Shown in pieces: positions 1,476-57,536 of a stretch of DNA of 64,000 bases. The notes beneath the pieces are model-generated. The model was not told where the DNA came from, searched no databases, and worked only from the letters and a program-made list of their open reading frames with translations. The stretch lies in the NCBI GenBank assembly GCA_023974075.1, contig CM043800.1, positions 35,156,459 to 35,220,458 of the forward strand, read 5' to 3'. The number at the start of each line of letters is the position of its first letter. Position 1 is the first letter of the stretch. The translations under genes were made by a program, and so were the position numbers. This DNA comes from Chaenocephalus aceratus. Lineage: Eukaryota > Chordata > Actinopteri > Perciformes > Channichthyidae.

Positions 1476-2520
1476 AAAGGGAGATACACACCACTTTAAA
1501 AAATAGACCCATTTAGGTGGTAGGTGTATAAAATGATCTGTCAAAAACAGAGTACAGGAAGCAGTCTGCAAGGCCAAAACTATGTAAGATGTGACTCACT
1601 TATTAACTGAATACTGAGATTGTGGTCTTCCCTGTTGCACAAAATTATTTTATTTTTCATGGATGTGTCCCATTCTGTTATTTCATGCAAATGAGTAGTT
1701 CCTTTTCTCGTAAAAGTCTGTCCACAATGTCTTTTACTTATAAGTAAATCTTGCAGGCGTGAATCGTATAATCCTTGCTAACATCTTGTATTTCTTACCC
1801 CAAATAAATCCTATTCATAGACCCTTTCATAGCAGACATTCAGCAAGTTATTGCAGAACACATACATGACAGTTCCAGCTATTATTGCAATGCAGCAATT
1901 AGTAATGCTTTGAGTGACACCTTTGTTTGAAAGCCTGGCTAGAAGTTAATATGTATCATTATTTTAAAAATGAAAATGTGTTTAAGAGTTGAGTCAGACA
2001 TTTGAGTACAATCTCTTTGTGTGTGTATGTGCAATAGTGTGGCTCGGACCCTCCAGCCCAGTCAAACAGAGACAAAGACACAAAGAGAGGGAGGAACGGA
2101 GAGCGGGGCTCAGAGAAGACAAATGTGACCTGGAAGAGATGACGAGAAGAATGTCGTCCTGACAGAAGAGCACCTTTGCAAGATAAAGACTCTAAATTAA
2201 AGCGAGAAATAGGTGAAAATCAGCCGTCAGTGAAAGTAAAAATAGATTCTGGTGTCATGTTTAGCTGTAATGAGTGGGTGGGACTGATAGGAAGATTTCT
2301 CACTGAGGCCTCCTACTGTTCAATAATTACACTGCCATTGTCTCAGCAGTAGGTTCAGCACTTATTCTTTATAATTAAAGCATTTTATGAGCCCCCCTTA
2401 AATAATTGGAATTATTGAAATGCTTGACATTATAATTATAACCCTAACCCTTTTGAAAAAGTAAGGGGGCTATCACATGACTGGGGAGAGAAATGTGCTA
2501 CCTCACTGTTTAACCCATAC

Positions 2521-4485
2521 AATGAATAATCCTAGGAAATTTTGGAAAGCCATAAAATCGATTTCCACTGGTGATATCCCAAATGAGCTACCTCCGTGCC
2601 TCACCACAGCATCTGGCATTATATCAGACAGGGCTACTATGCTAAATTGCTTTAATGAGCATTTTGTGTCTTGTGGCTCTCTGTTTGGCTGTGTGGCTCC
2701 TGTGAACGCTCCAATCCTTGACTCTGAACAATGTGGTCTGGAAAACCCTTTCAGTTTTACTCCTTTAACTATTGGTATTGTTCATGAAGCATTATCCAAG
2801 TTAGATCCTAGGAAACCGGCTGGCCCGGACAACGTAGAACCTTTCTTTTTAAAGATAGCTGCAGATTTTATTGCTCCACCTCTTACTTCTCTTTTTAACC
2901 TCTCCCTCAGCACGAACACAATTCCAAAAGTATGGAAGTCTGCTTATGTCTTGCCTTTACTGAAAGGAGGGGAGGCAACTATTTTAAATAACTATAGGCC
3001 AATCTCTAAATTGTCAGTTCTGGCTAAGGTGCTCGAACGACTTGTGAGTGAACAAGTAAAGGAGTTTTTATGTATAAATGATATCCTGTCTAAACATCAG
3101 TCAGGATTCAGAAAGAAACACAGCACCATCACTGCGACAATGAAAGTGGTAAATGACATTACTACTATTTTAGATAATAAGCAGAGTTGTGCAGCTCTGT
3201 TTATTGACCTTTCCAAAGCGTTTGACACCGTTGATCATCGCATTTTAAAGCAGAGGCTACTCAGTATTGGCATATCCAGCAATGCAGTGTGGTGGTTTGT
3301 AAACTACCTCTCTGAAAGATCCCAATGTGTTCATTTTGATGGACTGTCTTCTGAATGGTTAAACATTTCTAATGGTGTACCACAAGGTTCTGTTTTAGGA
3401 CCACTTTTATTCTCCATATATATTAACAGTGTAGGTGATAATGTGGATGAAGCTACTTTACATTTTTATGCGGATGATACTGTGATGTATTGTGCAGGTC
3501 CCTCCATTAAAGAGGCTGTTGTTAAATTACAAGCTGTTTTTAACACTATTCAGACTCAGCTCTCTGAATTAAAGCTTCTTTTAAATGTGGATAAAACCAA
3601 GGTAATGCTCTTTTCAAAAGCTAAAAAGACACCAGAGCCTGTTTTAGATATTGTAACTACGCAAGGAACAAAACTTGAAGTTGTTGCCTGTTACAAATAC
3701 CTTGGTATCTGGCTTGATGATTGTCTCTCTTTTAAACTTCATGTCAATAACCTGCTTAAAAAACTGAGGGTTAGGCTAGGTTTCTTCTACAGAAACAAGT
3801 CCTGCTTCTCGCTTGAGGCCAGGAAAAGGCTAGTCACTGTGACCTTTTTACCTGTGCTGGACTATGGTGATTTGTTGTATATGAATGCACCTGCCAATTA
3901 CCTGAGCAAATTGGATGCTGCGTATCACAGTGCTCTGAGATTTGTCACAAATTGTAAAGCGCTTACACATCACTGTACACTGTATACCAAGGCAGGTTTA
4001 CCATCACTCTCTGTACGGAGGCTCAGTCATTGGTACACGTTTATCTATGAAGCTTTGTTGGGTAAACTCCCGTATTATATCTGCTCTCTGATAACACAGA
4101 GAGTTGCAAGCAGCTATTGTCTGAGGTCATATGATGTAGTCTTGTTAGATGTGCCAAGAGCAAGGACTGTCTTAGGTAAGACAGCTTTTATGTGCGCAGC
4201 TCCACTTGCTTGGAACAATCTTCAGCAAGAATTGAAACTGAGCAATCTCATTCCTCTGCATGTTTTTAAAGCTAGGCTAAATGAAATGCTTGCTGATACT
4301 ATGGGCACTTGTAAATGTCTATAACTATGTATCCTGTAAATATAATGTATAATGTCCTTTATTGTTTTATGTTTCATGTGGAACCTATATGCTGCAGGTC
4401 TCCCTTGAAAAAGAGATCTATGATCTCAATGGGACCAATCTGGTTAAATAAAGGTTTGAAATGAAATGAAATTCATTAGAACAGC
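2521..4485 (+). mobile_element. Rex1-like non-LTR retrotransposon, 5'-truncated, RT ORF open
   Basis: An open frame of about 600 codons gives the C-terminal part of a jockey-superfamily LINE protein. It starts at NNPRKFWKAIKSIS, just before the RT domain. RT motifs are intact: [31 protein letters not shown] and the catalytic FYADDT (about 3466-3483), then the YKYLGIWLDD motif. It stops at 4322. The 3' UTR ends 'caatgggaccaatctggttaaataaagg' and a (GAAAT)-type tail, as in fish Rex1-like elements. The endonuclease half is missing, so it is a dead-on-arrival copy. Copy B of the flanking duplication lacks it and shows the empty site at about 62860. Confidence 0.9.
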
Positions 4486-4648: not shown

Positions 4649-4654
4649 TTTATT
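4649..4654 (-). terminator. Poly(A) signal AATAAA of AFGP gene 1
   Basis: The reverse strand reads AAATAAAATAA about 275 bases past the AFGP stop codon and about 125 bases past the old trypsinogen stop. The same signal is conserved at 63059-63064 in gene 2. Confidence 0.75.
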
Positions 4655-4778
4655 TAGTTTTCAACATTCTGGCACATGTGTGTTAAGAGTCTTGATTGGC
4701 ACCAGAGAGAAGACAGAACAATAAAAACCAGGGCTGTGAACCAGTGGGAGAAGTGAAGAAAACAAACTGGTAATTTCT

Positions 4779-4931
4779 TTAGGGATTGGCTGCCAGAATC
4801 TCTTCAAACCAGGAGTGGAACTCAAACAGTTTGATGTACACCCCGGGGTAGTTTGGCTCGGCACATGCCTGACCCCATGACACCAGGCCGTGCACCTCTC
4901 CGTCACACACCAGAGGGCTGCCAGAGTCACC
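4779..4931 (-). pseudogene. Trypsinogen last-exon remnant reused as AFGP 3' UTR
   Basis: In the frame GGT-GAC-TCT the reverse strand reads [20 protein letters not shown], then a [10 protein letters not shown] motif, ending ...FEEILAANP and TAA at 4779. This is the final exon of trypsin, which carries Gly193-Asp194-Ser195. Gly197 has become Ser, and a Cys in the 'YTKVC' segment has become Phe. The AFGP frame reads the same bases as ...AGA GGG TGA, so the exon lies downstream of the AFGP stop and should be untranslated. There is no pyrimidine-tract acceptor in front of it: Thr-Ala-Ala repeat sequence runs straight into the exon, as expected if the repeat replaced the upstream trypsinogen exons. 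Confidence 0.9.
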
Positions 4932-7634
4932 CTCTTGCCGCTGTCGCAGCTGTTGCCGCTGTGGCCGCTGTCGCAGCTGTGGCCGCTGTCGCAGCTGTCG
5001 CAGCTGTCGCAGCTGTCGCGGCTGTCGCAGCTGTCGCAGCTGTGGCCGCTGTGGCCGCTGTCGCGGCTGTCGCAGCTGTGGCCGCTGTGGCGGCTGTCGC
5101 GGCTGTCGCCGCTGTCGCCGCTGTCGCAGCTGTCGCGGCTGTGGCCGCTGTCGCCGCTGTTGCCGCTGTCGCCGCTGTCGCAGCTGTCGCAGCTGTGGCC
5201 GCTGTGGCCGCTGTGGCCGCTGTGGCCGCTGTGGCCGCTGTGGCCGCTGTGGCCGCTGTTGCCGCTGTTGCCGCTGTTGCAGCTGTGGCCGCTGTGGCCG
5301 CTGTCGCAGCTGTGGCCGCTGTGGCCGCTGTTGCCGCTGTTGCCGCTGTGGCCGCTGTTGCCGCTGTTGCCGCTGTTGCAGGTGTTGCAGCAAAAATCAA
5401 TGCAGGTGTTGCAGCTGTCGCAGCTGTCGCAGCTGTCGCCGCTGTGGCCGCTGTTGCCGCTGTTGCAGCTGTTGCAGCTGTGGCCGCTGTTGCCGCTGTT
5501 GCCGCTGTTGCAGCTGTGGCCGCTGTTGCCGCTGTTGCCGCTGTGGCCGCTGTCGCCGCTGTTGCCGCTGTTGCAGGTGTTGCAGCAAAAATCAATGCAG
5601 GTGTTGCAGCTGTCGCAGCTGTGGCCGCTGTTGCAGGTGTTGCCGCTGTTGCAGGTGTTGCAGGTGTTGCAGCAAAAATCAATGCAGGTGTTGCAGCTGT
5701 TGCAGGTGTTGCAGCTGGTGCAGCTGTTACAGCTGTTTCACACACAAACAGACACACACACACAAACAGAGAAAGAGATACATTTTTGTTTTAAAGTTAT
5801 CCTCAACCATTCATATTTTTATTTAATATCTTACAATACAGTATGTTTTCTATATACTGTTTACTGTTTGTGTGTGTATCTTTGTGAATGTGTGTATTAT
5901 AGTGTTAATTGCATTGACTAAAACTATGACGAAATATGTTCTACAACGACCTTTTTTTCCGTGACTAAGACAAGACGATGATGAGACGGCACTGACGTCA
6001 GTAAATAATAACTGTAACGAAATCAACATGCAATATCGTTGACGCAAAGTGATGAGACGAAAATGTAGTTTACTAAATAATAACTTTGACAAAATCTCTC
6101 TTTACTTTCGTTGACGAAAAAGGAGGAGACGAAATGTTATCAAAGATAACGTTACATCTGATAGTCAGTTTTTCTCTCAGCAGTTCCATTTCCGGTGCTG
6201 CGGCTGATCAGCAGTTTTGTGTAGTGATGGGAATTCCGTCTCTTTTTAGTGAGCCGGATCATTTGGCTCGGCTCACCAAGAAGAGCTGGCTCTTTCATCT
6301 CCCAAACGGCTGTTCATTTGACCACATATATACCTTTTATAATTTAATCAAATGTAGCCATGTTTTGACAAATGATTTATATGTGAACACATATATCACT
6401 TAAATTATTCAATACATTCTTTGTAATGAATTATTCAAAACTAAAAATTACATTTTTAATATAAATGATTTGCTGTGGCCAATTGTTTTCACTGCATTTA
6501 CAGACCCTTGTAACTCTCTGATACCACCGAATGAATGCACTGACTTGCTTGTAGAACTACGCTACACAAAGCAGATAGCAACACCTACTGTATACAAACT
6601 TTAGCATAGACATTTTAGAAGGACAGCTACTGTATCGACATTTTAAAATTGTATTTAAAGAAAAAGCCAGCAGGGATCTATTTCAGTATTAACCAAAAAG
6701 TCAGCAACAGCTGAAGATAAAGATAATCATAAATAAAAATAACATAGTGAAAATAAATATATTGCAATGCTCAAAACAGCAACATCCAACCGTCTCTAAT
6801 CCATGGATATGACATGTCACTGCATGCATGCAGCATCCGTAGCACGGAGATCATCATATCATTCTGTCTAATATTCCCCCCCCCCGCCCCCACCCCCGTC
6901 AGCGTGAGTGAGTGACGAGTTGTGTACAGTCAAGGGAGATAATAATGATTTATGACGGAAATGTTACGATCCTGTCCGTCAAAATGAATAAAAATGAAAA
7001 AGTCTAACACCACCACTGCTTGGGAGAAAGAAACGAGGCGATATTTGGGCCCATTTTCGCTACAATGACGCGGAGAAAAAAAGTGAATGCATTGTTTTAT
7101 CAGGAGGGAAGCAATGTGGCCATAACACAGCTGGTGAAAACACCACAAACCTGACCAGATAATATCAGCAAAGCTGCATTCTTAATCATTCAACCTGTGT
7201 TTTTCATCAAATAAGGATAAGATATAATCTTGTTGGGAAATACATTTGACTAAAATGACAAATTGTTGGTTTTGGCTAGACAAGTTTGACTGAAGTTAGC
7301 TATATAATCTGATAACTAAAAAAGACTCAAATGTCAACAGTTTTCATTAACAAAAAGTAGACTAAAATGCTCAGACTTTTAGTCGACTAAATCTTGACTA
7401 AAATAGTTACTGTTTTCTTTTACTAAAATAAGACTGAAATGCTCAGACTTTTAGTCGACTAAAACTTGACTAAATAAAAACAGGATGAAGATGACTAAAT
7501 ATGACTAAAACTAACAAGGACATTTGATCCAGGACTAAGACTAAATAAAAAAAGAGCTGACAAAATTAACACTATTGTAATACTGTGTATTTACCAGCAG
7601 CTCCGATCAGCAGCAGCAGAGCCAGGAGTTTCAT
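4927..7634 (-). CDS. Antifreeze glycoprotein (AFGP) polyprotein, gene 1, complete two-exon model
   Basis: The gene encodes a secreted polyprotein cleaved into antifreeze glycoproteins, which adsorb to ice and stop crystal growth in blood and gut fluid. In this family each Thr carries Gal-GalNAc. Exon 1 (7634-7595) is the trypsinogen-type signal peptide [13 protein letters not shown] plus one base, with donor G|GTAAAT. Exon 2 (5732-4927) starts after acceptor AAACAG; the phases match (G+CT = Ala). The model is 846 bp, 281 aa. The mature part begins [17 protein letters not shown], then LIF spacers at 5682-5674, 5595-5587 and 5400-5392 separate units of 17, 26, 62 and about 152 residues, ending ATAARG-TGA. 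Pro follows Thr mainly near the spacers. No stop or frameshift breaks the model. The LIF spacers and trypsinogen ends identify the notothenioid type, not the gadid one. The intron carries a transposon. Splicing is predicted from sequence only. Confidence 0.93.
4936..5730 (-). repeat. 9-bp coding minisatellite of AFGP gene 1
   Basis: The array consists of 9-base units on the pattern GCN-GCN-ACA read on the minus strand, the (Ala-Ala-Thr)n code. It is interrupted three times by the 9-base Leu-Ile-Phe spacer. Thr codons are overwhelmingly ACA. Units near the stop use GCG-GCC or GCT-GCG; units near the spacers use GCT-GCA and CCT. Because 9 is a multiple of 3 and the unit lacks stops, long ORFs appear in several frames on both strands. 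Only the Ala-Ala-Thr frame joins correctly to exon 1. Confidence 0.95.
5900..7574. mobile_element. 1.68 kb TIR DNA transposon (hAT-like, non-autonomous) in AFGP intron 1
   Basis: The ends are inverted: TAGTGTTAATT...TTGAC at 5900 and its reverse complement at 7564-7574. Flanking octamers gtgtatta (5892-5899) and ttgtaata (7575-7582) match at 6 of 8 positions, so the target duplication is weak. Both subterminal regions are rich in 'gactaaaactgactaaa' motifs. No transposase ORF is present. A nested repeat fragment begins near 6224 ('gtgatgggaattcc'), and about 6940-6990 resembles part of the hAT element at 47502-47900. Without the element, intron 1 would be only about 180 bases. Confidence 0.75.
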
Positions 7635-7683: not shown

Positions 7684-7690
7684 ATTTATA
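7684..7690 (-). promoter_or_regulatory. TATA box of AFGP gene 1
   Basis: TATAAAT on the minus strand lies about 50 bases upstream of the ATG at 7634, implying a very short 5' UTR of roughly 20-25 bases, as in pancreatic serine protease genes. An E-box core (CACCTG on the plus strand, 7721-7726) lies just upstream. About 220 bases of GC/CT-rich proximal promoter remain before the LTR at 7911. Pancreatic expression is inferred from the trypsinogen ancestry. Confidence 0.7.
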
Positions 7691-9483: not shown

Positions 9484-10176
<693 letters not shown>

Positions 10177-11199: not shown

Positions 11200-11770
11200 G
11201 ACCCCCATAACCTTAGTCCCACATCCCTTTGATGTGGCACCTGTCACTCTGACATCTCTGACCTTTGACCCTCTTATCTTTTATGACTTGTTGTTTATTG
11301 TTTTATTGCCCCCTCATAAAGGATGTTGCTCAATAGTGGGGTGATAAGGACTTTATTGCCCCGTTGATGTGAAACCTGTCATAGTATCCTTAGGTCATTA
11401 TAGTCATCGATGATGAAACCATTATAGTCAATGATAATAGTTGACTTGTTTAGCTGTTATCGTTTTATTGCCCTCCTCATAAAGGACGTTGCTCAATAGG
11501 GGGTGATAAGACTTATTGCCTCCTTGATGTGACACCTGTTGTAGTATCCCCCTAGTAAGCCATTATAGTCAATGATGATAGTATGACTTGTTTAGGTCAC
11601 TGTTGTGGTTGTAATGCCCTCTATAAGGTAATGTTCTTTAATAGTGGGTTAATATTACTATTTACTCTTTTGTGGTAATATAAGGTTATATGAAATAGTA
11701 TGTCTTTGAAGTTGTATAGTTAGGTAATAATACTTTGACCTTGTTTGTGTTAATATGGGGTTCAAAGGGT
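11200..11770. repeat. Degenerate tandem blocks of about 160 bp
   Basis: Blocks such as 'cctcataaaggatgttgctcaatag' followed by 'tgataag', '...ttgatgtgacacctgt' and 'cattatagtcaatgatgata' occur two to three times at a spacing of roughly 130-170 bases. No coding sequence is seen. Confidence 0.65.
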
Positions 11771-12685
11771 AATCTTTGCTAGTTTATTTAAAACAAATCC
11801 GTTTCCCTTCTCCCCCCTTTTTTTTCTTCCTCCACCCATGCTGTCCCTCCCACCCTGCTGCACCTATGTCTGAGCCCTAAACCCTCACACACCTCCTCAC
11901 ACACCCCCCTCCCACCCCTGCTGCAACCTATGAACACTGAGGGGGGGGCTTTGAGTTTTTACCTGCAACTATGTCTCTGAAATGTGTCCACAGTGTTGTT
12001 TTTATACAAAATAAGTCATCTTTCCAGATAATCTAGTTCCTTTCTCGCAGTAAGGATAAGAATAATTGACAGAGAGGGTGTAAAAATCCCCATACTAGCG
12101 AAAGCCCTTTACTTAAATGTAACAAATCACCCTTTACTCTTAACAAATGTTTTTGAGATAACAGGGTCTCCACTATTAGACCTCAGGGTTGCTCACACAC
12201 AAGACTAGTGCTTGTTTTAAGTTTAGCTTAGAAAATATATTACTTTACAATAGCATCTAAAGCAGGCAGCTATAGGGGCTAGAGGAAGTATTTCCTCTCT
12301 ATAAAACTGATAAGATTATATTCTGTAGCAATGAAGTGTAAAGTGAAGGTTCCCCTTAAAAACTCCAGCAGACAGACAGAGGAAGAATCTATTTCGTGCA
12401 GACCTGAACATGACAGAGAACGGTAAGGAGGGGGGTTCATTTATTTACAAGTCCCAGTTTACCCCTTTACTCTTATCAATGTTTTTGAGATAACTATGAG
12501 CGGCCATGTACGCCAAAATTCAAACTAACCTTGTGCACACACTACTGAAAACATCTGGCCTTGCACACACACTACTGAAATACTCTCACATTCACTACTG
12601 AACACCTCACACACACACAACTGAAAGTTAAACCTCACACACATACTACTGAAAATTAACCTCACACACACGCAACTGCAAATTA

Positions 12686-12744
<59 letters not shown>

Positions 12745-13371
12745 CTTAAAACATCTGGCCTTGCACACACACTACTGAATACTCTCACATTCACTACTGA
12801 ACACCTCACACACACACAACTGAAAAATAACTTCACACACACACTCCGCAAAACATTTTACTGAAAGATTCCCAGTAGGGAATGTGCATGTGTTTCACCT
12901 ATGTGTGTGAGGGGGATTCTTGCTGTAACGGAAGTCATTCTAATGAAACGGAAGTAACAAAGAACAATGCTGCAGTGATACAGTAGGTGGCGATAATTCT
13001 CATCTACTCTGTTTGGAAGTCGCCATTAAAGAAGAAGAATGAAACAGAAGGTCCAATTCAGCATGGATTATAGAGAAACAGCACCGCAGCCGTAGGCTGG
13101 ACCCTGAACCGAGCAGTCTACAAACTGAGACGGTCTGTTCTATGGAGGTGTTCTTGTTTACATCACCTGGCGCAGCTCGTGAGGTGGCCTAGCAACCCGC
13201 TAGCAACATGCACAGCTGCAATAAGCTAACAATAATTAAACCGAAATCGAGACAGAACCTTTTCTTTTTTGTTTTACCATTTATTGAAGTGATTGACATT
13301 TCAGGCTGAGAGGACAATGGCCAGTTAAATATGGTTGATTAAGCTTAAGCATATCCCTTTTACACTGTTTT
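11771..13371 (+). repeat. Tandem 1.6 kb satellite-like unit 1
   Basis: The unit starts at 'aatctttgctagtttatttaaaa'. It contains pyrimidine-rich and (CA)n blocks (about 12690-12745), a 'cagtaggtggcgataattc...gtcgccattaaagaagaag' segment, and ends 'cccttttacactgtttt'. A 68-codon ORF seen in units 2-4 is broken by a base deletion here ('catggattatag' instead of 'catggatttatag'), which argues against coding function. Confidence 0.95.
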
Positions 13372-14975
13372 AATCTTTGCTAGTTTATTTAAAACAAATC
13401 GTTTCCCTTCTCCCCCTTTTTTTTCTTCCTCCACCCATGCTGTCCCTCCCACCCTGCTGCACCTATGTCTGAGCCCTAAACCCTCACACACCTCCTCACA
13501 CACCCCCCTCCCACCCTGCTGCACCTATGAACACTGAGGGGGGGGCTTTGAGTTTTTACCTGCAACTATGTCTCTGAAATGTGTCCACAGTGTTGTTTTT
13601 ATACAAAATAAGTCATCTTTCCAGATAATCTAGTTCCTTTCTCGCAGTAAGGATAAGAATAATTGACAGAGAGGGTGTAAAAATCCCCATACTAGCGAAA
13701 GCCCTTTACTTAAATGTAACAAATCACCCTTTACTCTTAACAAATGTTTTTGAGATAACAGGGTCTCCACTATTAGACCTCAGGGTTGCTCACACACAAG
13801 ACTAGTGCTTGTTTTAAGTTTAGCTTAGAAAATATATTACTTTACAATAGCATCTAAAGCAGGCAGCTATAGGGGCTAGAGGAAGTATTTCCTCTCTATA
13901 AAACTGATAAGATTATATTCTGTAGCAATGAAGTGTAAAGTGAAGGTTCCCCTTAAAAACTCCAGCAGACAGACAGAGGAAGAATCTATTTCGTGCAGAC
14001 CTGAACATGACAGAGAACGGTAAGGAGGGGGGTTCATTTATTTACAAGTCCCAGTTTACCCCTTTACTCTTATCAATGTTTTTGAGATAACTATGAGCGG
14101 CCATGTACGCCAAAATTCAAACTAACCTTGTGCACACACTACTGAAAACATCTGGCCTTGCACACACTACTGAAAAACTCTCACATTCACTACTGAACAC
14201 CTCACACACACACAAAACTGAAAGTTAAACCTCACACACATACTACTGAAAATTAACCTCACACACACGCAACTGCAAATTAACCTCACACACACACACA
14301 CACACACACAACCACACACCACACACCCACACACACACACTACTTAAAACAACTGGCCTTGCACACACACTACTGAAATACTCTCACATTCACTACTGAA
14401 CACCTCACACACACACAACTGAAAATAAAATAACTTCACACACACACTCCGCAAAACATTTTACTGAAAGATTCCCAGTAGGGAATGTGCATGTGTTTCA
14501 CCTATGTGTGTGAGGGGGATTCTTGCTGTAACGGAAGTCATTCTAATGAAACGGAAGTAACAAAGAACAATGCTGCAGTGATACAGTAGGTGGCGATAAT
14601 TCTCATCTACTCTGTTTGGAAGTCGCCATTAAAGAAGAAGAATGAAACAGAAGGTCCAATTCAGCATGGATTTATAGAGAAACAGCACCGCAGCCGTAGG
14701 CTGGACCCTGAACCGAGCAGTCTACAAACTGAGACGGTCTGTTCTATGGAGGTGTTCTTGTTTACATCACCTGGCGCAGCTCGTGAGGTGGCCTAGCAAC
14801 CCGCTAGCAACATGCACAGCTGCAATAAGCTAACAATAATTAAACCGAAATCGAGACAGAACCTTTTCTTTTTTGTTTTACCATTTATTGAAGTGATTGA
14901 CATTTCAGGCTGAGAGGACAATGGCCAGTTAAATATGGTTGATTAAGCTTAAGCATATCCCTTTTACACTGTTTT
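13372..14975 (+). repeat. Tandem 1.6 kb unit 2
   Basis: 1604 bases, nearly identical to unit 1. The CA block is interrupted ('acaaccacacaccacacaccc'). Differences from the neighbours are mostly in microsatellite length. Confidence 0.95.
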
Positions 14976-15889
14976 AATCTTTGCTAGTTTATTTAAAACA
15001 AATCGTTTCCCTTCTCCCCCTTTTTTTTTCTTCCTCCACCCATGCTGTCCCTCCCACCCTGCTGCACCTATGTCTGAGCCCTAAACCCTCACACACCTCC
15101 TCACACACCCCCCTCCCACCCTGCTGCACCTATGAACACTGAGGGGGGGGCTTTGAGTTTTTACCTGCAACTATGTCTCTGAAATGTGTCCACAGTGTTG
15201 TTTTTATACAAAATAAGTCATCTTTCCAGATAATCTAGTTCCTTTCTCGCAGTAAGGATAAGAATAATTGACAGAGAGGGTGTAAAAATCCCCATACTAG
15301 CGAAAGCCCTTTACTTAAATGTAACAAATCACCCTTTACTCTTAACAAATGTTTTTGAGATAACAGGGTCTCCACTATTAGACCTCAGGGTTGCTCACAC
15401 ACAAGACTAGTGCTTGTTTTAAGTTTAGCTTAGAAAATATATTACTTTACAATAGCATCTAAAGCAGGCAGCTATAGGGGCTAGAGGAAGTATTTCCTCT
15501 CTATAAAACTGATAAGATTATATTCTGTAGCAATGAAGTGTAAAGTGAAGGTTCCCCTTAAAAACTCCAGCAGACAGACAGAGGAAGAATCTATTTCGTG
15601 CAGACCTGAACATGACAGAGAACGGTAAGGAGGGGGGTTCATTTATTTACAAGTCCCAGTTTACCCCTTTACTCTTATCAATGTTTTTGAGATAACTATG
15701 AGCGGCCATGTACGCCAAAATTCAAACTAACCTTGTGCACACACTACTGAAAACATCTGGCCTTGCACACACACTACTGAAATACTCTCACATTCACTAC
15801 TGAACACCTCACACACACACAAAACTGAAAGTTAAACCTCACACACATACTACTGAAAATTAACCTCACACACACGCAACTGCAAATTA

Positions 15890-15954
<65 letters not shown>

Positions 15955-16583
15955 CTTAAAACATCTGGCCTTGCACACACACTACTGAAATACTCTCACA
16001 TTCACTACTGAACACCTCACACACACACAACTGAAAAATAACTTCACACACACACTCCGCAAAACATTTTACTGAAAGATTCCCAGTAGGGAATGTGCAT
16101 GTGTTTCACCTATGTGTGTGAGGGGGATTCTTGCTGTAACGGAAGTCATTCTAATGAAACGGAAGTAACAAAGAACAATGCTGCAGTGATACAGTAGGTG
16201 GCGATAATTCTCATCTACTCTGTTTGGAAGTCGCCATTAAAGAAGAAGAATGAAACAGAAGGTCCAATTCAGCATGGATTTATAGAGAAACAGCACCGCA
16301 GCCGTAGGCTGGACCCTGAACCGAGCAGTCTACAAACTGAGACGGTCTGTTCTATGGAGGTGTTCTTGTTTACATCACCTGGCGCAGCTCGTGAGGTGGC
16401 CTAGCAACCCGCTAGCAACATGCACAGCTGCAATAAGCTAACAATAATTAAACCGAAATCGAGACAGAACCTTTTCTTTTTTGTTTTACCATTTATTGAA
16501 GTGATTGACATTTCAGGCTGAGAGGACAATGGCCAGTTAAATATGGTTGATTAAGCTTAAGCATATCCCTTTTACACTGTTTT
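14976..16583 (+). repeat. Tandem 1.6 kb unit 3
   Basis: 1608 bases, near-identical to units 2 and 4, with a longer uninterrupted (CA)n at about 15893-15952. Confidence 0.95.
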
Positions 16584-17497
16584 AATCTTTGCTAGTTTAT
16601 TTAAAACAAATCGTTTCCCTTCTCCCCCTTTTTTTTTCTTCCTCCACCCATGCTGTCCCTCCCACCCTGCTGCACCTATGTCTGAGCCCTAAACCCTCAC
16701 ACACCTCCTCACACACCCCCCTCCCACCCTGCTGCACCTATGAACACTGAGGGGGGGGCTTTGAGTTTTTACCTGCAACTATGTCTCTGAAATGTGTCCA
16801 CAGTGTTGTTTTTATACAAAATAAGTCATCTTTCCAGATAATCTAGTTCCTTTCTCGCAGTAAGGATAAGAATAATTGACAGAGAGGGTGTAAAAATCCC
16901 CATACTAGCGAAAGCCCTTTACTTAAATGTAACAAATCACCCTTTACTCTTAACAAATGTTTTTGAGATAACAGGGTCTCCACTATTAGACCTCAGGGTT
17001 GCTCACACACAAGACTAGTGCTTGTTTTAAGTTTAGCTTAGAAAATATATTACTTTACAATAGCATCTAAAGCAGGCAGCTATAGGGGCTAGAGGAAGTA
17101 TTTCCTCTCTATAAAACTGATAAGATTATATTCTGTAGCAATGAAGTGTAAAGTGAAGGTTCCCCTTAAAAACTCCAGCAGACAGACAGAGGAAGAATCT
17201 ATTTCGTGCAGACCTGAACATGACAGAGAACGGTAAGGAGGGGGGTTCATTTATTTACAAGTCCCAGTTTACCCCTTTACTCTTATCAATGTTTTTGAGA
17301 TAACTATGAGCGGCCATGTACGCCAAAATTCAAACTAACCTTGTGCACACACTACTGAAAACATCTGGCCTTGCACACACACTACTGAAATACTCTCACA
17401 TTCACTACTGAACACCTCACACACACACAAAACTGAAAGTTAAACCTCACACACATACTACTGAAAATTAACCTCACACACACGCAACTGCAAATTA

Positions 17498-17596
<99 letters not shown>

Positions 17597-18235
17597 CTTA
17601 AAACATCTGGCCTTGCACACACACTACTGAAATACTCTCACATTCACTACTGAACACCTCACACACACACAACTGAAAAATAACTTCACACACACACTCC
17701 GCAAAACATTTTACTGAAAGATTCCCAGTAGGGAATGTGCATGTGTTTCACCTATGTGTGTGAGGGGGATTCTTGCTGTAACGGAAGTCATTCTAATGAA
17801 ACGGAAGTAACAAAGAACAATGCTGCAGTGATACAGTAGGTGGCGATAATTCTCATCTACTCTGTTTGGAAGTCGCCATTAAAGAAGAAGAATGAAACAG
17901 AAGGTCCAATTCAGCATGGATTTATAGAGAAACAGCACCGCAGCCGTAGGCTGGACCCTGAACCGAGCAGTCTACAAACTGAGACGGTCTGTTCTATGGA
18001 GGTGTTCTTGTTTACATCACCTGGCGCAGCTCGTGAGGTGGCCTAGCAACCCGCTAGCAACATGCACAGCTGCAATAAGCTAACAATAATTAAACCGAAA
18101 TCGAGACAGAACCTTTTCTTTTTTGTTTTACCATTTATTGAAGTGATTGACATTTCAGGCTGAGAGGACAATGGCCAGTTAAATATGGTTGATTAAGCTT
18201 AAGCATATCCCTTTTACACTGTTTTAATCTTTGCT
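16584..18235 (+). repeat. Tandem 1.6 kb unit 4
   Basis: 1652 bases. The extra length is explained by a CA run of about 45 units at 17504-17595. Flanking sequence is almost identical to unit 3, implying very recent duplication or homogenisation. Confidence 0.95.
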
Positions 18236-18425
18236 AGTTTATTTAAAACAAATCGTTTCCCTCTCCCCCTTTTTTTTTCTTCCTCCACCCATGCTGTCCC
18301 TCCCACCCTGCTGCACCTATGTCTGAGCCCTAAACCCTCACACACCTCCTCACACACCCCCCTCCCACCCTGCTGCACCTATGAACACTGAGGGGGGGGG
18401 GGTTTGAGTTTTTACCTGCAACTAT

Positions 18426-19112
18426 GGCCCATTCCCAAACCGCCCACTACACCCTACCCCTCCGTTTGCGCGTTCACGCGGAGGGTCCGCGATATTGAGG
18501 GCTGTTCCAAAACAACGAGTGTGGAGGGGGAGTGGGCTATCAAGCCCTCAAATAGCGAGTCTGCAGCGGTGCTGACTTGAGACCGGTCTCTACCTGACCG
18601 GAGTCACGCTGTGTGTGTCCGTCAGGAAACACGCTGTTTACAAGTAGTTCCAGCAAACATCCACTGATAAATTGCGATGTTAACAACCTCATGATAACCT
18701 CATATGTTTTTAACTTAGGATCATACCTGTGTTTAGTCTAGAAAAAAGTAAATGTGTGCATTTTATTATAAAGTTGTGTATATTTACAGACCGTTGCAAA
18801 AACTAAGAAGCTGATAAACATCAGGTTTAAAACTAAAAGAGCTTTGAAACACAATGAAAGATGTTTGGAGTTTTATTTGAGTTATTCATTTAAACTTTTT
18901 GTCTAAGAGATGCTGATTTGAAACCGTTGTTACATACAGTTACGGCATTTCCTGTTTCTGCCGGAGAGAGGGGAGGCCGTCCCAAAGCTTGCTGCTGTAT
19001 TTACTCCCTCCATCTGACAGGAGGGAGCCTCGTTGAGCTGCGAGTGTGGCTACAGACGGAGTTCACTCCGTCACGGAGGGGTAGCGTCGAGGGAGTGGTT
19101 TGGGATTGGGCC
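18426..19112. mobile_element. 687 bp non-autonomous TIR element
   Basis: The ends are GGCCCATTCCCAAACC...CTACCCCTCC and the complement of GGAGGGGTAG...GGTTTGGGATTGGGCC. The flanks are TAT (18423-18425) and TTT (19113-19115); the uninterrupted units read aacTATgtctctg, so a 3-bp target duplication with one change is likely. No ORF of note. Confidence 0.8.
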
Positions 19113-23825: not shown

Positions 23826-26800
23826 TCTCAATCATAACATTCCGTTCGATGTCTCACTATGGATGCGCCTCATCGCGGAGCAAAACAGAAGCATCAATCT
23901 CATTACGCCAATCCTGATTGGCTGGTGATCTTGACGTCAGCGTCAGGGGAAATCACCCCCTATAAGTAGCTTGCACCACAACGCATGCGTCATTCAAACA
24001 CCTCTTCTCGCTTCAGAGCACATCTCTACAGTAGCCGGGCAAGCTTCACTGTCCACAGACTGAACCCAAATACCCATTTCGGTCGACGGGCGCTCGCCGG
24101 CTACTCCTTCTGCTTCGCAGGAAGACGGTAGTACTAACGCCAGTTAGTATTAAAATCGACCTCGCCCTTCTCTTCCCCGGAAAGTAAGGTAGGTCCGATT
24201 TGTTTAAGCTAGCAGCACACCTGTTGCTAGCTCGCTCCCTCTCTACCGACAGTTTTTTTTCTTTTCTCTCCTCCACGGAGGGGAAAAGGATTAAAAAGGA
24301 GCATACTGCCACACCAGTCAGTATTCTCCGGGAATAAAAGACCCACACTGTCCTTTTCTCCGGATTAAGGACAAGGTGGTTTTATCTTTTCTCCCGTCCC
24401 ACCTGTCGAGAGCGGGCCCTCTCCACGCCACGAGGCAGCCAAGATGGACGCCCCTCTCCCTCACACCAGAGGAGTCAGGGACTCGGTGGCTCGACTCTGC
24501 GGCTGCCGGTTTGAAGATATCGGGCACAGACACACACCAGGTCTGTTCGTCCTGCCTCGGGCTGGAACACGCCCGAGGCGCTATCGACAACCCCGGCTCA
24601 TGCGGACATTGTGTCCGCTTCACTGACGGTTAGCTCGACAAGCTAGCCTGTCGGAACAGACCCCCCCATGTCCACGGACCCGCCGACCGGCAGTCAGGAG
24701 GGGGCGTCCCGCCACAGAGAATGAGCCCCTCTCCGTGTCGGTCTGGGGCTCACTATCTGCTATGGCTATAGACCCGGTGATGGCAAGACACGCGGGAACG
24801 GTTTCCCGCGCTCCACCAAGCTGGGGCTCCCGGTTTAGACCTCACCATGGTCTCGCCGCGGAGGATGTCCCCGGGCCTGATTACGAGGAGGACGAAGAGG
24901 AGGACGCCCTGGCGTTCCTCCTGTCCGAATCGGATGAACAGGAAGAGGACACCTTCATGTCACCGGCTCAGGCGACCAAGCCTGAGGCAAGTGCTGTTCT
25001 CCCGGGCGATAGCACACCAGCTTCGCCCGGTCTGAGCATGGACCTGCAGGCCATGTGTAAACGCGCTGCGGCCAGACTCAACGTCCCGTGGCCCGAAATG
25101 GCCCAAGGAGACCTCCAGGTCCCGCTACGAGGGAAAACATCTTCCCCAAGCAGCGGGGAAAAAGAGACAACTCCTTCCAGTCTTCCCGGAGATGTTGGAT
25201 GAGGTGTCTGTCTCGTGGAGAGACCGGCCCTTCAGCAACAAGGTCCCAATCCAGGGTGCCTCCTGCCTAGACTGTGACGGAATGGAGAAGCTCGGCCTGC
25301 TCTGCATGCCGCCCATGGAACCGCTGGTAGCAGCTCACCTTCTACAAAGGTGGGCCCGTCACCAAGCAGGAACCCCACGCTGCCAGCAAAGTCGGACCGT
25401 TTTTCAGTCAGCAATGACTGAAAAGGCCTACAAAGCGGCAGCGTTGTCCGCCAGGGCCCTGAATGTGTCCTCGCTGTTAACCGCCTACCAAGCGGAGCTC
25501 TGCGAGGACCTGTCGGGTAACCCGGGGGCAGCCACTCTGGACGAGATGGCAGCGGTCACGGACATTTGTCTCTGTGTCCAACGCTGCGCCGTCCAGGCCA
25601 CGGGCAAGGCAATTGGGATCATGGTGGTGCAGGAAAGAGCGAGATGGCTCAACCTCACCACTCTCCCAGACCGGGAAAAGGAGGATGTGCTGGATATGCC
25701 CATCGTTCCCGAGGGAATTTTTGGCTCCGCTCTCGCCCCCATGCAAAGGAGGTGTGAGACGAAGAAGAGGGAGGACGAGGCACTCCACCTCTGCCTCCCT
25801 CGAAGGGTCCAGCCGCTGCTCTAGCAGCAGCAGTCCTCTGCCAAAGCTGCCTCGAACTCTCCTCGGTTTAAAACACCGAAGACGCAGAGGTCGCAGCCCA
25901 CCCCGAGTCCCCAGCCCAGGCTGGAGACAAGGGCAAGTTGGCCGAGAAAATCTCCGGTTCCGGCTGCAGCTCAGGCTCAGCCAACCCAGAATTTCGGCCA
26001 ACAGTCGAGGAAGAAGAAGCGAGCGGTGTGACAGTGACGGTGTGCCTCGAGAGATGCCTAAACACCATCCTCAAGTCCGCACACACACATGTCACATGCT
26101 GATTGATTCCTCTGTCATAAAACATTTGCCGCTGACGCATCCAGGCCGAGGGCCGAGGGCGCAGCTCATAAAAATGAAAAGAAAATCAATAAAACCAATA
26201 AACAGCCCGGCAATTCTTCCCCTTTTGAGAGCAGCTACGGCATCTCTCAAAAGGCGGATTATTGACGGGTCTGTGAAGGCACCACCGCCATGCGCACGCG
26301 CAGTGCCGGCTGGGGCTTTAAGGGCACCACCGTCACGTGCATGCGCAGTGCCGGCTGGGGTCGTAAGGGCTCCACCGTCACTCGCATGCGCTGTGCCGGC
26401 TGGAGCTGTAAAGGCACCACCGTCACGCGCAATCGCAGTGCCGGCTGGAGCTGTGAAGGCACCACCGTCACACGCATGCACAGTGCCGGCTGGAGCTGTA
26501 AGGGCACCACCGTCACGCGCATGCGCAGTGCCGGCTGGAGCGTAAGCGTGACATCTCAGCTGGCTCTAAGGAGCATACAGCAGGAGATACTCACGACATC
26601 TGCCTGGGCTTCTCAAAACAGTTATACTTTATCTGTTTTCACAAGCCCAGAGAGAGTCAACCCATATTCTGGAGAGAGAGGCCCTCTCTCTCCTAGAAAG
26701 AAGGGTTTTATCTATAATGCCCGCCGAGCAGATTCAGATTACGCAGACAAATGTCCTCGTAAAGCACCTGCTCAACATGGGGCTCATAATAAAACTAAAC

Positions 26801-28744: not shown

Positions 28745-29040
28745 ACCCGCTTGGACTACTGCAATAGTGTCCTGTTCGGGGTTCCCAACAAAACCCTAGA
28801 CAGGCTCTAGTATGTCCAAAACTGTGCTGCTAGGGTACTCACGCACACAAAGCCGTGGCAACACATCACTCCCACCCTCATCCACCTCCACTGGTTGCCA
28901 GTCAAGTCCCGCATCACCTACAAAGTTCTCCTCCTTACCTACAAGTCCCTCCATGCCCTTGCCCCCCAGTACCTATCGGACATCCTTCACCCACATGCCC
29001 CACCCCGGAACCTGCGGTCCTCAGACTCTGGCCTGCTTCC
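28745..29040 (+). mobile_element. L2-clade LINE fragment, part 2
   Basis: It continues the interrupted LINE with LDYCNSVLFGVP and then, in shifting frames, [40 protein letters not shown]. The copy ends where the Ty3/gypsy pol begins. Confidence 0.85.
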
Positions 29041-31450
29041 CACTTGGTGAGGATATGGGAGGGGGACGAGTGGAAGACTGGTTTCAACACTCCAAGCGGA
29101 CATTATGAGTATCTGGTAATGCCTTTTGCTCTAACAAATGCACCTGCCGTTTTTCAGGCTCTCATAAATGATGTGTTGAGGGAATTTTTGAATAATTTTG
29201 TTTTTGTCTATCTTGATGATATCCTGATTTTTTCCCGTGATGAAGGTTGACACGTTTTGCATGTTCATCAGGTATTAAGAAAGTTGTTGGACAATCAACT
29301 TTATGTTAAGGCTGAAAAATGTGAGTTCCACGTCAGTTCCACTTCATTTCTGGGTTTCATCCTGGGTGCTGACGAGATAATGATGGATCCTGCTAAAGTG
29401 AGCGCTGTGGCTGAATGGCCCACAACCTCTTCCAGGAAAAAAGTCCAACAATTCCTTGGATTTGCAAACTTCTACAGAAAATTTGTTAGGAATTTTAGTT
29501 CTATTGCCGCTCCTATGCATGTACTCACCTCTCCTTCTGTTCAGTTTGTGTGGACCCCATAGGCAGACCAGGCCTTCCAGAAGTTACAACAAGTTTTCAC
29601 TACAGCTCCAATACTTACCATCCCGGATTCCCAACGGCAGTTCACGGTGGAGGTGGATGCCTCCAACGAGGGCATCGGGGCGGTCCTCTCACAGAGGGCA
29701 GAGAAAGACAGTAAGCTCCATCCATGTGCCTACCTTTCCCGTAAGTTGACTGCGGCTGAACGGAACTATGATGTAGGCAATAGAGAGTTATTAGCCGTGA
29801 AGGTAGCACTGGATGAGTGGAGGCACTGGCTAGAAGGGGCAAAACAGCCATTTATTGTGTGGACAGACCACAACAATTTGGAGTACATACGCAAGGCTAA
29901 GAGGTTAAACTCCAGACAGGCACGATGGACCTTATTCTTCAATAGGTTTAACTTCACTCTCTCCTACCGTCCTGGCTCACAGAACGCCAAACCAGACGCG
30001 TTATCCAGGCTTTTTGACCCAGAGGCTCTTTCCAAGGAGACAGAGTCCATTTTACCGCCCACTCAGGTGATTGGAGGGGTGACATGGCCAATTGAGGCTA
30101 AGGTAAATCAAGCTTTAGAGGGAAAAACCTTACCCAGTGGTGGCCCCCCTAACCGCCTCTTTGTTCCCCCATCTGTCCGCTCTGACGTGATTCACTGGGC
30201 TCACACATCTGTATTAACATGTCATCCAGGTATCAGACGAACTATGTACATGATAAAGCAAAGGTTTTGGTGGCCTAAAATGGAGAAGGAGGTTACTGAG
30301 TCCTCGGAATAAGACCTCAACCCAGTCTCCTATGGGTCTACTGCAACCTTTGTCCATTCCAAGCCGCCCATGGTCTGACATCTCGCTGGATTTTGTCACT
30401 GGACTGCCGCCCTCTGCAGGTAACACCACCATCTGCACTGTTGTTGACAGATTCACCAAAATGACTCACTTTATCCCCATGCCCAAATCTCCCTCTACTA
30501 AAGAGACAGCAGAAGCGCTCTTATCTCATGTTTTCAGGCTGCATGGATTTCCTCGAGATGTGGTGTCAGACCGTGGGCCGCAGTTCGTTTCCCAGTTTTG
30601 GAAGGAGTTCTGCAGCCTGATAGGAGCCACTCCCAGCCTCACATCTGGTTACCACCCACAGGCTAATGGTCAATCAGAGAGGATCAACCAGGAACTGGAG
30701 ACGTGTTTACGGTGTCTGGTGTCCCAGAATCCCACAACTTGGAGCAAGCAGCTGATATGGGTGGAGTATGCCCACAACACCCAACCTACATCTGCCACGG
30801 GTCTCTCCCCTTTTCACTGCGCCTATGGTTACCAACCTCCTCTGTTTCCAGAAGTAGAGAAGGAAGTGACTGTACCGTCAGCACATGCCCTGGTGAGGCG
30901 GTGTCGCAGAGTCTGGGCAGGAGCTCGCCAGGTTCTCCTGAAGACTGCTGCTCGCATGAAAAAGACAGCAGATCGACATCGTCGTCCGGCACCTGCCTAC
31001 AAACCCGGGCAGAAGGTTTGGCTATCTACAAGAGATCTGCCCCTGTGTGTGGCCTCCAGGAAGCTGGCTCCGAGGTTTGTGGGTCCGTTTCCCATAACGA
31101 AAGTTGTTAAACCGGTGGCTGTTCTCCTGCGCCTGCCCAGGTCCTTGAGAGTCCATCCGACCTTTCAGTGTTGCCAAAGTCAAACCGGTTCGGGAGAGTC
31201 GTTTGGTTCCTCCATCCAAGCCTCCTCCCCCCCGGATGTTATACGGCGGTCTGATATATGACGTCAAGAAACTGCTAGCAGTCAGGAAGAGAGGACGCGG
31301 CCGACAGTTCCTTGTAGACTGGAAAGGATACGGTCCAGAACATCGGTCGTGGGTACCAGCAAGTTTTGTTGTGGATCAGAAACTGATAAAGGACTTTTTC
31401 AGACTTAATCCACAGGACTCTGGGCCGTCCGGAGTCGGCCGTAGAGGAGG
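29041..31450 (+). pseudogene. Ty3/gypsy chromodomain retrotransposon pol, 5'-truncated and broken
   Basis: Domain order is RT, RNase H, integrase, chromodomain. RT starts late ([20 protein letters not shown]) and has YLDDILIFS near 29210. A TGA at 29248 and a TAG at 29560 interrupt it. RNase H ([22 protein letters not shown]) and the integrase zinc-binding His residues (HWAH...[10 protein letters not shown]) follow to TAA at about 30310. The N-terminal part of the integrase core is deleted. The second frame carries VVSDRGPQF and SERINQE, the last two acidic residues of the catalytic triad. The chromodomain lies at about 31245-31400 (FLVDWKGYGPEHRSW). No gag or protease is present. Confidence 0.9.
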
Positions 31451-35879: not shown

Positions 35880-38800
35880 CAACTTTTTATTGTTGTTTTT
35901 TTTTTGTTTGCCCTCACAAAAGGGACTTATACAGATGCAAATTATATAGACAATACAAAAAGAAAAAGAAAAGAAAAAAATAAAGAAAGAAAAAAAGATA
36001 TATATATATATAGGGAATCCCTTTCCCATGCCACCCCGTCCCCCCCTCTTCCCATCCATCTTGCCATTTCACAGAAAATCCTACCTGATGTTTTTTAGCA
36101 ATCGTCTGAGTTCATCTATATATTATATTATAGCATAACAATGTATAGCATAACAATTTATCCACATAAAATACATTCATTCCTTTTTTTTTTTTTTTTT
36201 CCCACATAACATTTCATCTGTTTAAGCTGAATTGCGATTAACTCCTAATAAACCACAATTGCACCAAGGTGTGCCTATATGTACAATCATCATTTACATG
36301 GATGATATTACCCGATCAGCAGCTCTTTGAATAGCCTCTAATGTTTCCCCCTTAGCCTTATTAGCAGAAGCGATTGACAGCTCTGAAATTAGTAGGTCAT
36401 GGAAGGATGATGTCCATTGCTTAATAAATAAAGTATGTGGGGGTTTCCATCGTATTACTATTATTTTTTTGGCTGCTGTTAGACCAGCGAAAAGCACCCT
36501 TTTCTGATGCTTCTGTAGATCAAGAGAAGAATCATCATTCAACAATACAATATTTGGGAGACAGGGTATGTGAACTCCAATAATCTCAGATACAATGTCA
36601 ATAACCTGTTTCCAGAACGTTCTTACTGCAGTACATTCATAAACCATGTGTACATATGTGCCAATAGTCTTTTGGTTACAGAGAAGGCATATGGGGCTTG
36701 GAATCATCCTTAATTGACAGCATTTTCTGGTTGACAGGTAATATCTGTGTATCATTTTATACTGTATCAATTGGTGATTGTGGTTACGCGATGTTAAGGA
36801 GATATTATTCCATATTCTCTTCCAATCAATAGTCTGCGTATACTTTTTTAGATCTGCGTTCCATACTGCAGAGATGCCAATATATCCGGTTAATTTATCT
36901 TGCAGTTTTTTATATATATATGAAGTAGTGCCGCTCACACTGTTTGGACTTAATATGACCTTAACCAATTGATGTGTTGGCAGAGGTTGATTCCAAGGAA
37001 CTCCATATGTGCGCATGGCAGTACGTAGTTGTAAATAGAAAAAGAAGGAAGAGCCAGGCACATTATACGTATCTTTCAATTCTTGGAAGGACATCAAGCC
37101 GTTGTCGTTGGTTATGTCAGAAAGATAATGTATTCCTCGGGTTTGCCATTGTGGGAATTGGATTGCTTTTTTCCCAATACGTAGTAACAGGTTATGAAAA
37201 ATGGGTATGTTACTATGCCAATCTACAGACCAATTGCACAATTTCTCCACATGTTTCCACACTTTCACGGCTTGCCCAATAATTGGTCCAAATGTTTGCA
37301 TACAGTCATATGGCGACATGGCAGAAAATAAGACATCACCAAGTTTAAGGGGATAGACTATACTTCTTTCAATTTTAATCCAAGGTACATTGGTGCTTTC
37401 ATCAATCCAGTTTTTCAAGGCTCGAAGCGTGAAGGAGTAATAATAGAGCTCGAGATTGGGAACATTAAGGCCTCCACTGTTTTTGTCATATTGTAAAACT
37501 TTGTATCTGATTCTTGGGTATTGGTTTTTCCAAATATATTTGAAATCCTATTCTGAAGTTTGTCGCAAAAACCGTCTGGTGGAGATAAAGGCAACATACT
37601 AGCTAAGAAATTGACTCTTGGTAGAACATTCATCTTTATGATTGAAATTCGTCCTGCTAAAGAAATTGTTATATTAATCCACTTTTTTAGGTCATCTTTA
37701 ATTGTTGTATACATTATTTTGTAGTTTTTTGCTACTATTGTGTCTAATGAGGCATATATATCAATTCCCAAATACTTAAATTGTTGGACAATCTGCAATT
37801 CTGTATTTAAGTTTAGTTCAACCATGGCACTATTGAGGGGTAAAATACATGATTTATTCAAATTGATCTTGTAACCAGATATTGAACTAAATTGGGTAAA
37901 AAATATTTAACAGCTTAGGAAGCGTAGTTGGTACCTCGTCCAAGTACAGTAGTAGATGATCCGCATATAACGAAATGTTGTGGTCTGTGTCTTTTACAAC
38001 TATCTGTTTTACTTCTTTGGATAGTCTTATTTTCTGTGCAAGCGGTTCTAGAGAAATTGCAAACAGAAGCACGGAGACAGGGCAGCCTTGCCGTGTGCCA
38101 CGTACAATTGGAAATCTAGGTGACCACTGATTGCCTGTCAGAACCATAGCACTTGGATTATTATATAGGATCTTCGCCATAATCATAAATGTTGTCCCAA
38201 AACCCATTATTTGCATTGTATGCCACAAAAATGGCCATTCTAGCCTATCAAAAGCTTTTTCAGCATCAACTGATAATACGGCGCAAGGCGATGTTATGTC
38301 TGCTGCAAAATTAATAACATGCAGTAGTCTCCTGATATTGTCTGATGAGAATCGGTTTTTCATAAAGCCTGTTTGGTCATAATGAACTAATGTCGGAAGG
38401 AATTTCTCCAATCGTCGAGCTATTACTTTTGCATAAAGTTTGATTTCTGAATTTATAAGTGATATTGGTCTAAAACTTGTGCATAAGTTTGGGTCTTTCC
38501 CCTTCTTGTGTATGAGAGAAATTATAGCTGTATTGATGTCCTTTTGGAAATGTCCTTCTATAAGTGCTACCTGAATCATTTCCAATAATATTGGTCCTAA
38601 ATCAGGCCAAAACTGGGAATATAATTCCGGAGGGATACCATCTATACCAGGGGATTTGTCAAGGTTCATGTCTTCCAATGCTTCAGATAATTCTTTAAGT
38701 GTTATTTCACAATCCAAGCGATCAATGTCCTCAGGGGATAGATGTGGTAAATTCAGATCCACAAAGAAATGTTCTAACTATGCCTTTGATGTATGTACTT

Positions 38801-48884: not shown

Positions 48885-49860
48885 ACTATTCCAAGACAGA
48901 GGAGCTGCGCATCTAAAAGCTGTCTTCCCTAAGACAGTCCTAGCAGTTGGCACATTTAATAAAACCACACGCATTCGATCTCAGGCAGTAGCCACTTACA
49001 ATTCTCCGTGAGATCAGGGAGCAGATATAAGATGGAAGTTTCCCTAACATGGCTTTGTATATAAAAATGTACCAGTGACTGAGCCTCCGTACAGTTAGTG
49101 AAAGCAAACCAGCCCTTGCATACAGGGTACAGTGATGGGTTAATGCTTTACAGTTTGTCACAAATCTTAGTGCACTGTGATAAGCAGCATCTAACTTGAC
49201 CAGGCAATTGGCAGGTGCATTCATATAGATCAGATCCCCATAGTCCAGCACAGGTAAAAAGGTCACAGTGACTAGCCTTTTCCTGGCCTCAAGCGAGAAA
49301 CAGGACTTGTTTTTGAAAAAGAACCCTAGCCTAACCCTCAGTTTTTTTAGCAGGTTATTGACATGAAGTTTAAAAGAGAGACAATCATCAAGCCAGATAC
49401 CAAGGTATTTGTAACAGGCAACAACTTCAAGTTTTGTTCCTTGCGTAGTTACAATATCTAAAACAGGCTCTGGTGTCTTTTTTGCTTTTGAAAAGAGCAT
49501 TACCTTGGTTTTATCCACATTTAAAAGAAGCTTTAATTCAGAGAACTGAGTCTGAATAGTGTTAAAAACAGCCTGTAATTTAACAACAGCCTCCTTAATG
49601 GTGGGACCTGCACAATACATCACAGTATCATCCGCATAAAAATGTAAAGTAGCTTCATCCACATTATCACCTACGCTGTTAATATATATGGAGAATAGAA
49701 GTGGTCCTAAAACAGAACCTTGTGGTACACCATTATAAATGTTTAACCACTCAGAAGACAGTCCATCAAAATGAACACATTGGGACCTTTCAGAGAGGTA
49801 GTTCACAAACCACCCCACTGCAAGGCTGGATATGCCAATACTGAATAGCCTCTGCTTTAA

Positions 49861-57503: not shown

Positions 57504-57536
57504 ATACGTTCCTTCTCCGAGGGTGTTTTTTCCCTA

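Follow-up and report, generated by a model that had tools for sequence, protein, structure and literature searches.

The question raised by this locus is whether a long Ala-Ala-Thr repeat on the minus strand of an icefish chromosome belongs to an intact antifreeze glycoprotein (AFGP) gene, from which gene its other parts were taken, and what it would produce. The AFGP gene is a textbook example of a new gene, in which parts of an old gene were combined with coding repeats that arose de novo, and notothenioid AFGP genes retain a trypsin-like remnant at the 3' end. The notothenioid AFGP polyprotein genes were reportedly described by Chen, DeVries and Cheng in 1997, and the D. mawsoni locus is said to have been described by Nicodemus-Johnson in 2011. 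The window, which is the whole stretch of DNA analysed, comprises 64,000 nucleotides (C16:35156459-35220458), and coordinates given without a chromosome are positions within it. The AFGP gene under study is designated g6. We assign a probability of about 0.93 to the reading that g6 is an intact AFGP polyprotein gene of the notothenioid kind, and that it is one of 11 copies or fragments which the icefish carries in its AFGP/trypsinogen locus. The features on which this reading is based, together with the part of a sister copy that reaches into the window, are as follows; TLP denotes the trypsinogen-like protease gene found in the same locus.

7685 to 7690, minus strand: TATA box (TATAAA), common to the TLP gene and the sister AFGP genes
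7595 to 7634, minus strand: exon 1, presumed signal peptide (13 residues), with the ATG at 7634 and a phase-1 donor GTAAAT
5733 to 7594, minus strand: intron 1, 1862 bp, with donor GTAAAT and acceptor AAACAG
4927 to 5732, minus strand: exon 2, AFGP polyprotein with four units and three LIF spacers, ending in AARG and TGA
5674 to 5682, minus strand: LIF spacer 1 (position derived)
5587 to 5595, minus strand: LIF spacer 2 (position derived)
5392 to 5400, minus strand: LIF spacer 3 (position derived)
4930 to 5391, minus strand: largest unit, 154 residues with 50 Thr
4779 to 4931, minus strand: remnant of a trypsinogen-like last exon, now 3' UTR, out of the AFGP frame, with Pfam and PDB matches
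4649 to 4654, minus strand: AATAAA polyadenylation signal
63339 to 64000, minus strand: 3' part of exon 2 of sister copy g7, whose ATG lies beyond the window at C16:35224589

When the minus strand was read from 7634 to 4927 and spliced, exons 1 and 2 of g6 joined in phase 1 to give a single frame of 281 residues. Exon 1 has the sequence ATGAAACTCCTGGCTCTGCTGCTGCTGATCGGAGCTGCTG, exon 2 begins at 5732, and the TGA stop occupies 4929-4927. The coordinates of the original prediction were exact to the base when the ATG, splice sites and stop were re-read. Its trypsinogen-like signal exon was also borne out, as g6 and TLP share 38 of the 40 bases of exon 1 (2 mismatches), and its phase-1 intron with matching donor and acceptor was found in frame (GTAAAT following 7595, AAACAG preceding 5732). 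In addition, exon 2 had been described as a stop-free (Ala-Ala-Thr)n exon with LIF spacers. The open frame and the three LIF spacers are present, but freedom from stops is in itself no evidence of coding, because none of the six frames of the AFGP repeat is interrupted (six ORFs of 205-358 residues lie within 4661-5921). The gene call is made instead because the ATG, the splice phase, the three spacers and the AARG stop share one frame, and because the end base is the same as in g4 and g7. A protein search with an approximate query of 284 residues, in which the 7,993 best word-sharing candidates were scored, returned only a 401-residue JGI hypothetical protein (E 5.6e-7) with no local alignment, and this protein was set aside as a low-complexity match. 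As expected, no match to the AFGP query was obtained in a phage search, and there was none in an Rfam search or in a Pfam search of 4927-5790.

At the 3' end, the sequence from 4931 to 4782 read in its own frame matches the Pfam Trypsin family (5.5e-14) and trypsins in the PDB (from 5.1e-15), and 4779-4942 read in another frame gave no Pfam or PDB match. The trypsinogen 3' exon that had been predicted is thus real, but it is not part of the AFGP translation; the frame of this exon begins at 4931, in overlap with the AFGP stop, and the exon is therefore 3' untranslated in the AFGP gene. The proposed origin from trypsinogen needs a similar correction. Trypsinogen-like parts are present, but the nearest donor in the locus is the TLP gene (ATG at C16:35399472), with exons that read IIGG and VAHC, and not a plain trypsinogen.

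Gene g6 is kin to this TLP gene. The promoter and exon 1 agree at 91.6% over 155 bp, the downstream flank of intron 1 at 87% over 175 bp, and the TLP 3' region, comprising the last exon and the sequence following it, matches 4933-4495 of the window at 91% over 442 bp. In the alignment, ATATAAATTTGAG at the TATA box is identical in TLP and eight AFGP copies. The 40 bases of exon 1 precede 8 of the 11 AFGP copies or fragments (seven exactly and g7 by alignment). A DNA comparison of TLP against the full window showed only three regions of TLP that match g6, namely exon 1 together with the beginning of intron 1, the end of that intron, and the last exon; none of the TLP coding exons between the first and the last matched g6. 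Also, ACAGCTGCA, nine bases encoding Thr-Ala-Ala, spans the TLP intron 1/exon 2 junction at C16:35399189-35399181. Its position across the TLP acceptor is as required by the published origin model, which places a Thr-Ala-Ala founder element at that junction (PMC8622921, in part).

Intron 1 is 247 bp in TLP versus 1862 bp in g6. The g6 intron contains an extra segment at about 5905-7576 that is absent from the TLP intron, and a segment of about 1.64-1.74 kb occurs at the same point in all eight of the AFGP introns compared. It is probably an old mobile-element insertion, a DNA transposon, and probably arrived after the split between AFGP and TLP. The segment ends look palindromic in g6 (TAGTGTTAATT ... 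AATTAACACTA), with TTAA at both edges.

At least 11 AFGP copies or fragments and at least one TLP gene were found on one chromosome (C16), the AFGP copies within about 0.4 Mb and the locus at 34.98-35.45 Mb, and the placement of the window in an AFGP/trypsinogen locus was thereby supported. The count of 11 is a lower bound in which g10a and g10b are partial copies. The two lie about 5.6 kb apart in opposite orientation (g10b at C16:35366499-35368392) and are perhaps the remains of an inverted pair. Three of the 11 (g4, g6 and g7) are open from exon 1 to AARG, with frames of 1,099 residues in g4 and 984 residues in g7, and the position of the final base with respect to the trypsin remnant is identical in all three. 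Five others (g1, g2, g3, g5 and g8) leave the repeat frame or stop early, and exon 1 was not found in the stretch examined for g9, g10a and g10b, that of g9 being perhaps too short.

Trypsinogen sequence also occurs upstream of these genes. A fragment at 9550-9859 on the plus strand lies about 2 kb upstream of g6 in opposite orientation. Its last exon (9707-9859) matches Pfam Trypsin at 6.4e-18, the 64-bp piece at 9550-9613 matches TLP just before its last exon, and TLP pieces of 64 bp and 99 bp match the fragment at 9550-9802 in the DNA comparison. Two sister trypsinogen fragments have a stop after TYS, which this one has lost. Similar fragments lie upstream of g3 and g5, at a distance of about 2 kb, and upstream of TLP at about 3.4 kb. 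The upstream blocks are shared at 91-94% with g3 (four longest pieces) and at 92% and 86% with TLP (two longest), which suggests a spread of the AFGP genes as segments.

Other repeats also occur in the window. About four tandem copies (96-99%) of a unit of about 1.6 kb with a CA-rich minisatellite occupy 11770-18426, with partial copies at 19112 and 23071, and about six copies of a 45-bp repeat lie in open frames on both strands at 26271-26546. Many frames that by eye have a retrotransposon-like look (reverse transcriptase/integrase) are present on both strands at 2465-4324, 28834-31261, 36294-38777, 48940-52694 and 57480-59175, in agreement with the high repeat content of the AFGP locus in related species (PMC10256766, in part). 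Outside the locus, weaker repeat-like matches were seen on C3, C7, C768, C2174 and other contigs; those to exon 2 at C3:47437771-47438490 and C7:34684354-34685784 (63-65%) may represent simple repeats or AFGP-like sequence.

The four units predicted for g6 in one precursor were recovered, but not their lengths of 17 to about 152 residues; the units between LIF spacers measure 16, 26, 62 and 154 residues. The first of these is taken to begin at the V that follows the presumed signal part, and the last comes to 151 residues if the terminal ARG is left out. The longest uninterrupted repeat runs are 48 and 18. If Gal-GalNAc is assumed on every Thr, the calculated unit masses are 2.8, 5.1, 12.4 and 30.8 kDa, which span the published classes AFGP8/7, 6 and 1-5, the last defined as 10.5 to at least 33.7 kDa in a figure legend of PMC8622921 (in part). 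A different reading of the long unit is that it expanded by slippage as simple sequence, and that g6 is a young pseudogene whose copy is unexpressed. The long unit is indeed built from few kinds of 9-mer (50 tripeptides, nine kinds, with 38 of 51 belonging to just three), and 8 of the 11 copies or fragments are not whole in the assembly or in the stretch examined. Also, an unspaced run was read as pseudogene decay in Pseudochaenichthys georgianus, where a chimeric pseudogene has 722 repeats and no spacers (PMC10256766, in part). However, the signal exon and splice sites of g6 are preserved, as are the three LIF spacers, the AARG stop in frame, the TATA box and the AATAAA, and the largest unit of this copy, at a calculated 30.8 kDa, falls inside the published AFGP1-5 range and is no runaway expansion. 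We consider decay unlikely, and it is plausible from the sequence that g6 is a functional gene.

The sister copies divide the repeat differently. By spacer pattern, g4 has 52 segments, g5 has 49 and g7 has 50, of which 29, 28 and 27, respectively, are 14 residues long. The longest segment besides the first is 43 residues in g4, 26 in g5 and 32 in g7, some of the longer ones hiding a variant spacer. The frame of g5 is lost near its end, g3 shows 17 segments of this kind and then a break, and g8 breaks after its second segment, its class resting on fragments. The repeat runs of g1 are 20, 19, 14 and 9, and no copy besides g6 and g1 has a repeat run above 10. The longest clean run of g2 is 9, and g2 was counted as a long-unit gene because its intron is nearly identical to that of g1 and its pieces show the g1 layout, cut by frame shifts. 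The g1 and g2 pair lies at C16:34.976-34.987 Mb.

All AFGP gene comparisons were made within one genome and one assembly. The intron-1 tree covered the 8 of 11 copies that have both exon 1 and the acceptor (g1-g8), and it sets g1, g2 and g6 apart from g3, g4, g5, g7 and g8 at 100/100. In a tree with TLP as outgroup (412 columns), g1 and g2 form the first branch (96/91) and the other six AFGP genes, including g6, fall together (93/95), this being a weak tree in which one of six inner branches is starred, four are open and the bootstrap is not settled. The long-unit genes, as judged from these trees, appear not to form one clade and to be placed outside the short-unit clade.

Repeat number is what assemblies get wrong, which limits the comparison of long-unit and short-unit genes, and the repeat number of g6 itself could be wrong in a long-read assembly. 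The difference between g6 and its sisters would not be biological at all if long-read errors had distorted repeat number and intactness. The locus is very hard to assemble (PMC10522714 and PMC10256766, both in part), and g1, g2, g3, g5 and g8 lose the frame yet keep A/P-A-T in the units checked, as would result from indels. In a test confined to clean repeat runs, A/P-A-T is kept by every one of the nine-base units that standard repeats flank in phase (412 of 412), including those of broken copies; the test did not separate intact from broken copies and is no proof of selection. Thus, the calls of broken copies may partly reflect assembly error, and intactness is no special merit of g6. Three open frames with the same stop would hardly be expected from such errors, however, and the intron tree parts long-unit from short-unit genes at 100/100. 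A purely technical difference is in our view quite improbable.

The split between long-unit and short-unit genes might be new. No per-gene unit lengths are described in the available parts of two accounts of the C. aceratus locus (PMC7307600 and PMC10522714), and a literature search, with older AFGP papers outside its reach, gave no pointer to per-gene unit classes. The accounts examined, in their available parts, also do not name the notothenioid genes that encode the large AFGP isoforms. These isoforms hinder ice growth more effectively than small ones according to a preprint (PMC13131655, in part), and a four-unit gene with a 50-Thr unit is a direct candidate for the source of one. A speculative extension, to which we give limited credence, is that there are two old AFGP gene classes, with g6 and the g1 and g2 pair dedicated to AFGP1-5 and the short-unit genes to AFGP7/8. 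Since the long-unit genes lie outside the short-unit clade, and rooting on TLP makes g1 and g2 the first to branch, the earliest AFGPs may have been a small number of long molecules, and the short-unit polyprotein of many spacers may have arisen later. If this were true, g6 would be the sole copy, of those examined in the assembly, with an open frame for the largest antifreeze.

The steps from g6 to antifreeze can be proposed from published work on the family. In the exocrine pancreas, g6 would be transcribed from its inherited trypsinogen-like promoter, and the conservation of the proximal promoter and TATA box with TLP offers a simple reason for the predicted pancreatic expression. The signal peptide would then direct the precursor into secretion, every Thr would receive Gal-GalNAc, and excision of the LIF spacers would release four AFGPs of about 2.8, 5.1, 12.4 and 30.8 kDa, which would adsorb to ice and halt its growth. 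As a long-unit copy, g6 would supply large molecules of AFGP1-5 size, and the products of the three sister copies that can be read through most of exon 2 would be chiefly of AFGP7/8 size.

Four known systems are relevant for comparison. First, AFGPs of codfish have the identical tripeptide, and g6 could in principle be of that type and of independent origin. However, cod linkers differ and cod AFGPs came from noncoding DNA (PMC8622921, in part), whereas trypsinogen-like exons are physically present in g6, and its TLP-like promoter, exon 1 and last exon contradict such an origin, which we regard as extremely improbable. The long-run genes of Microgadus tomcod are predicted to yield a single large AFGP of at least about 32 kDa (PMC8622921, in part); g6 likewise encodes a large AFGP, but the tomcod origin is independent and the linkers differ.

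Secondly, chimeric AFGP/TLP genes resemble g6 in having an AFGP run and a trypsin-like 3' part. In g6 the trypsin remnant stands behind the AFGP stop, and classification as a chimera was rejected as no TLP exons follow the AFGP run in frame. Given this remnant and the lack of matches to internal TLP coding exons, g6 does not qualify as a chimera containing a TLP part.

Third, the published C. aceratus locus is very probably the same genomic place. PMC10522714 (in part) puts it at 34.92-35.62 Mb on one scaffold and lists 9 AFGP genes, 10 trypsinogens, 2 chimeras and a TLP there, and PMC7307600 (in part) reports 11 AFGP copies, 10 trypsinogens and 2 TLP genes. Chimeras are lacking in C. aceratus according to the preprint PMC13131655 (in part), as opposed to the two in PMC10522714. 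The position and copy number found here fit this locus, and g6 is therefore very probably already annotated as one of its 9-11 AFGP genes.

Lastly, notothenioid AFGP genes have two exons, a trypsinogen-like signal exon, (Thr-Ala/Pro-Ala)n repeats, Leu-X-Phe spacers, an AARG terminus and a tandem locus (PMC10256766 and PMC13131655, both in part). Gene g6 is alike in its exons, signal exon, repeats and spacers, AARG terminus and tandem locus, and differs in having four units, the largest of 154 residues, versus the 52 and 50 segments of the open copies g4 and g7. A TLP-like signal exon, (A/P-A-T)n with Leu-X-Phe in frame, an AARG-stop at the edge of the trypsin remnant, the founder element in TLP and a tandem AFGP/trypsinogen cluster were all found. 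Gene g6 is a member of the known, published AFGP gene family, and it shows every part of the AFGP origin with the likely donor nearby.
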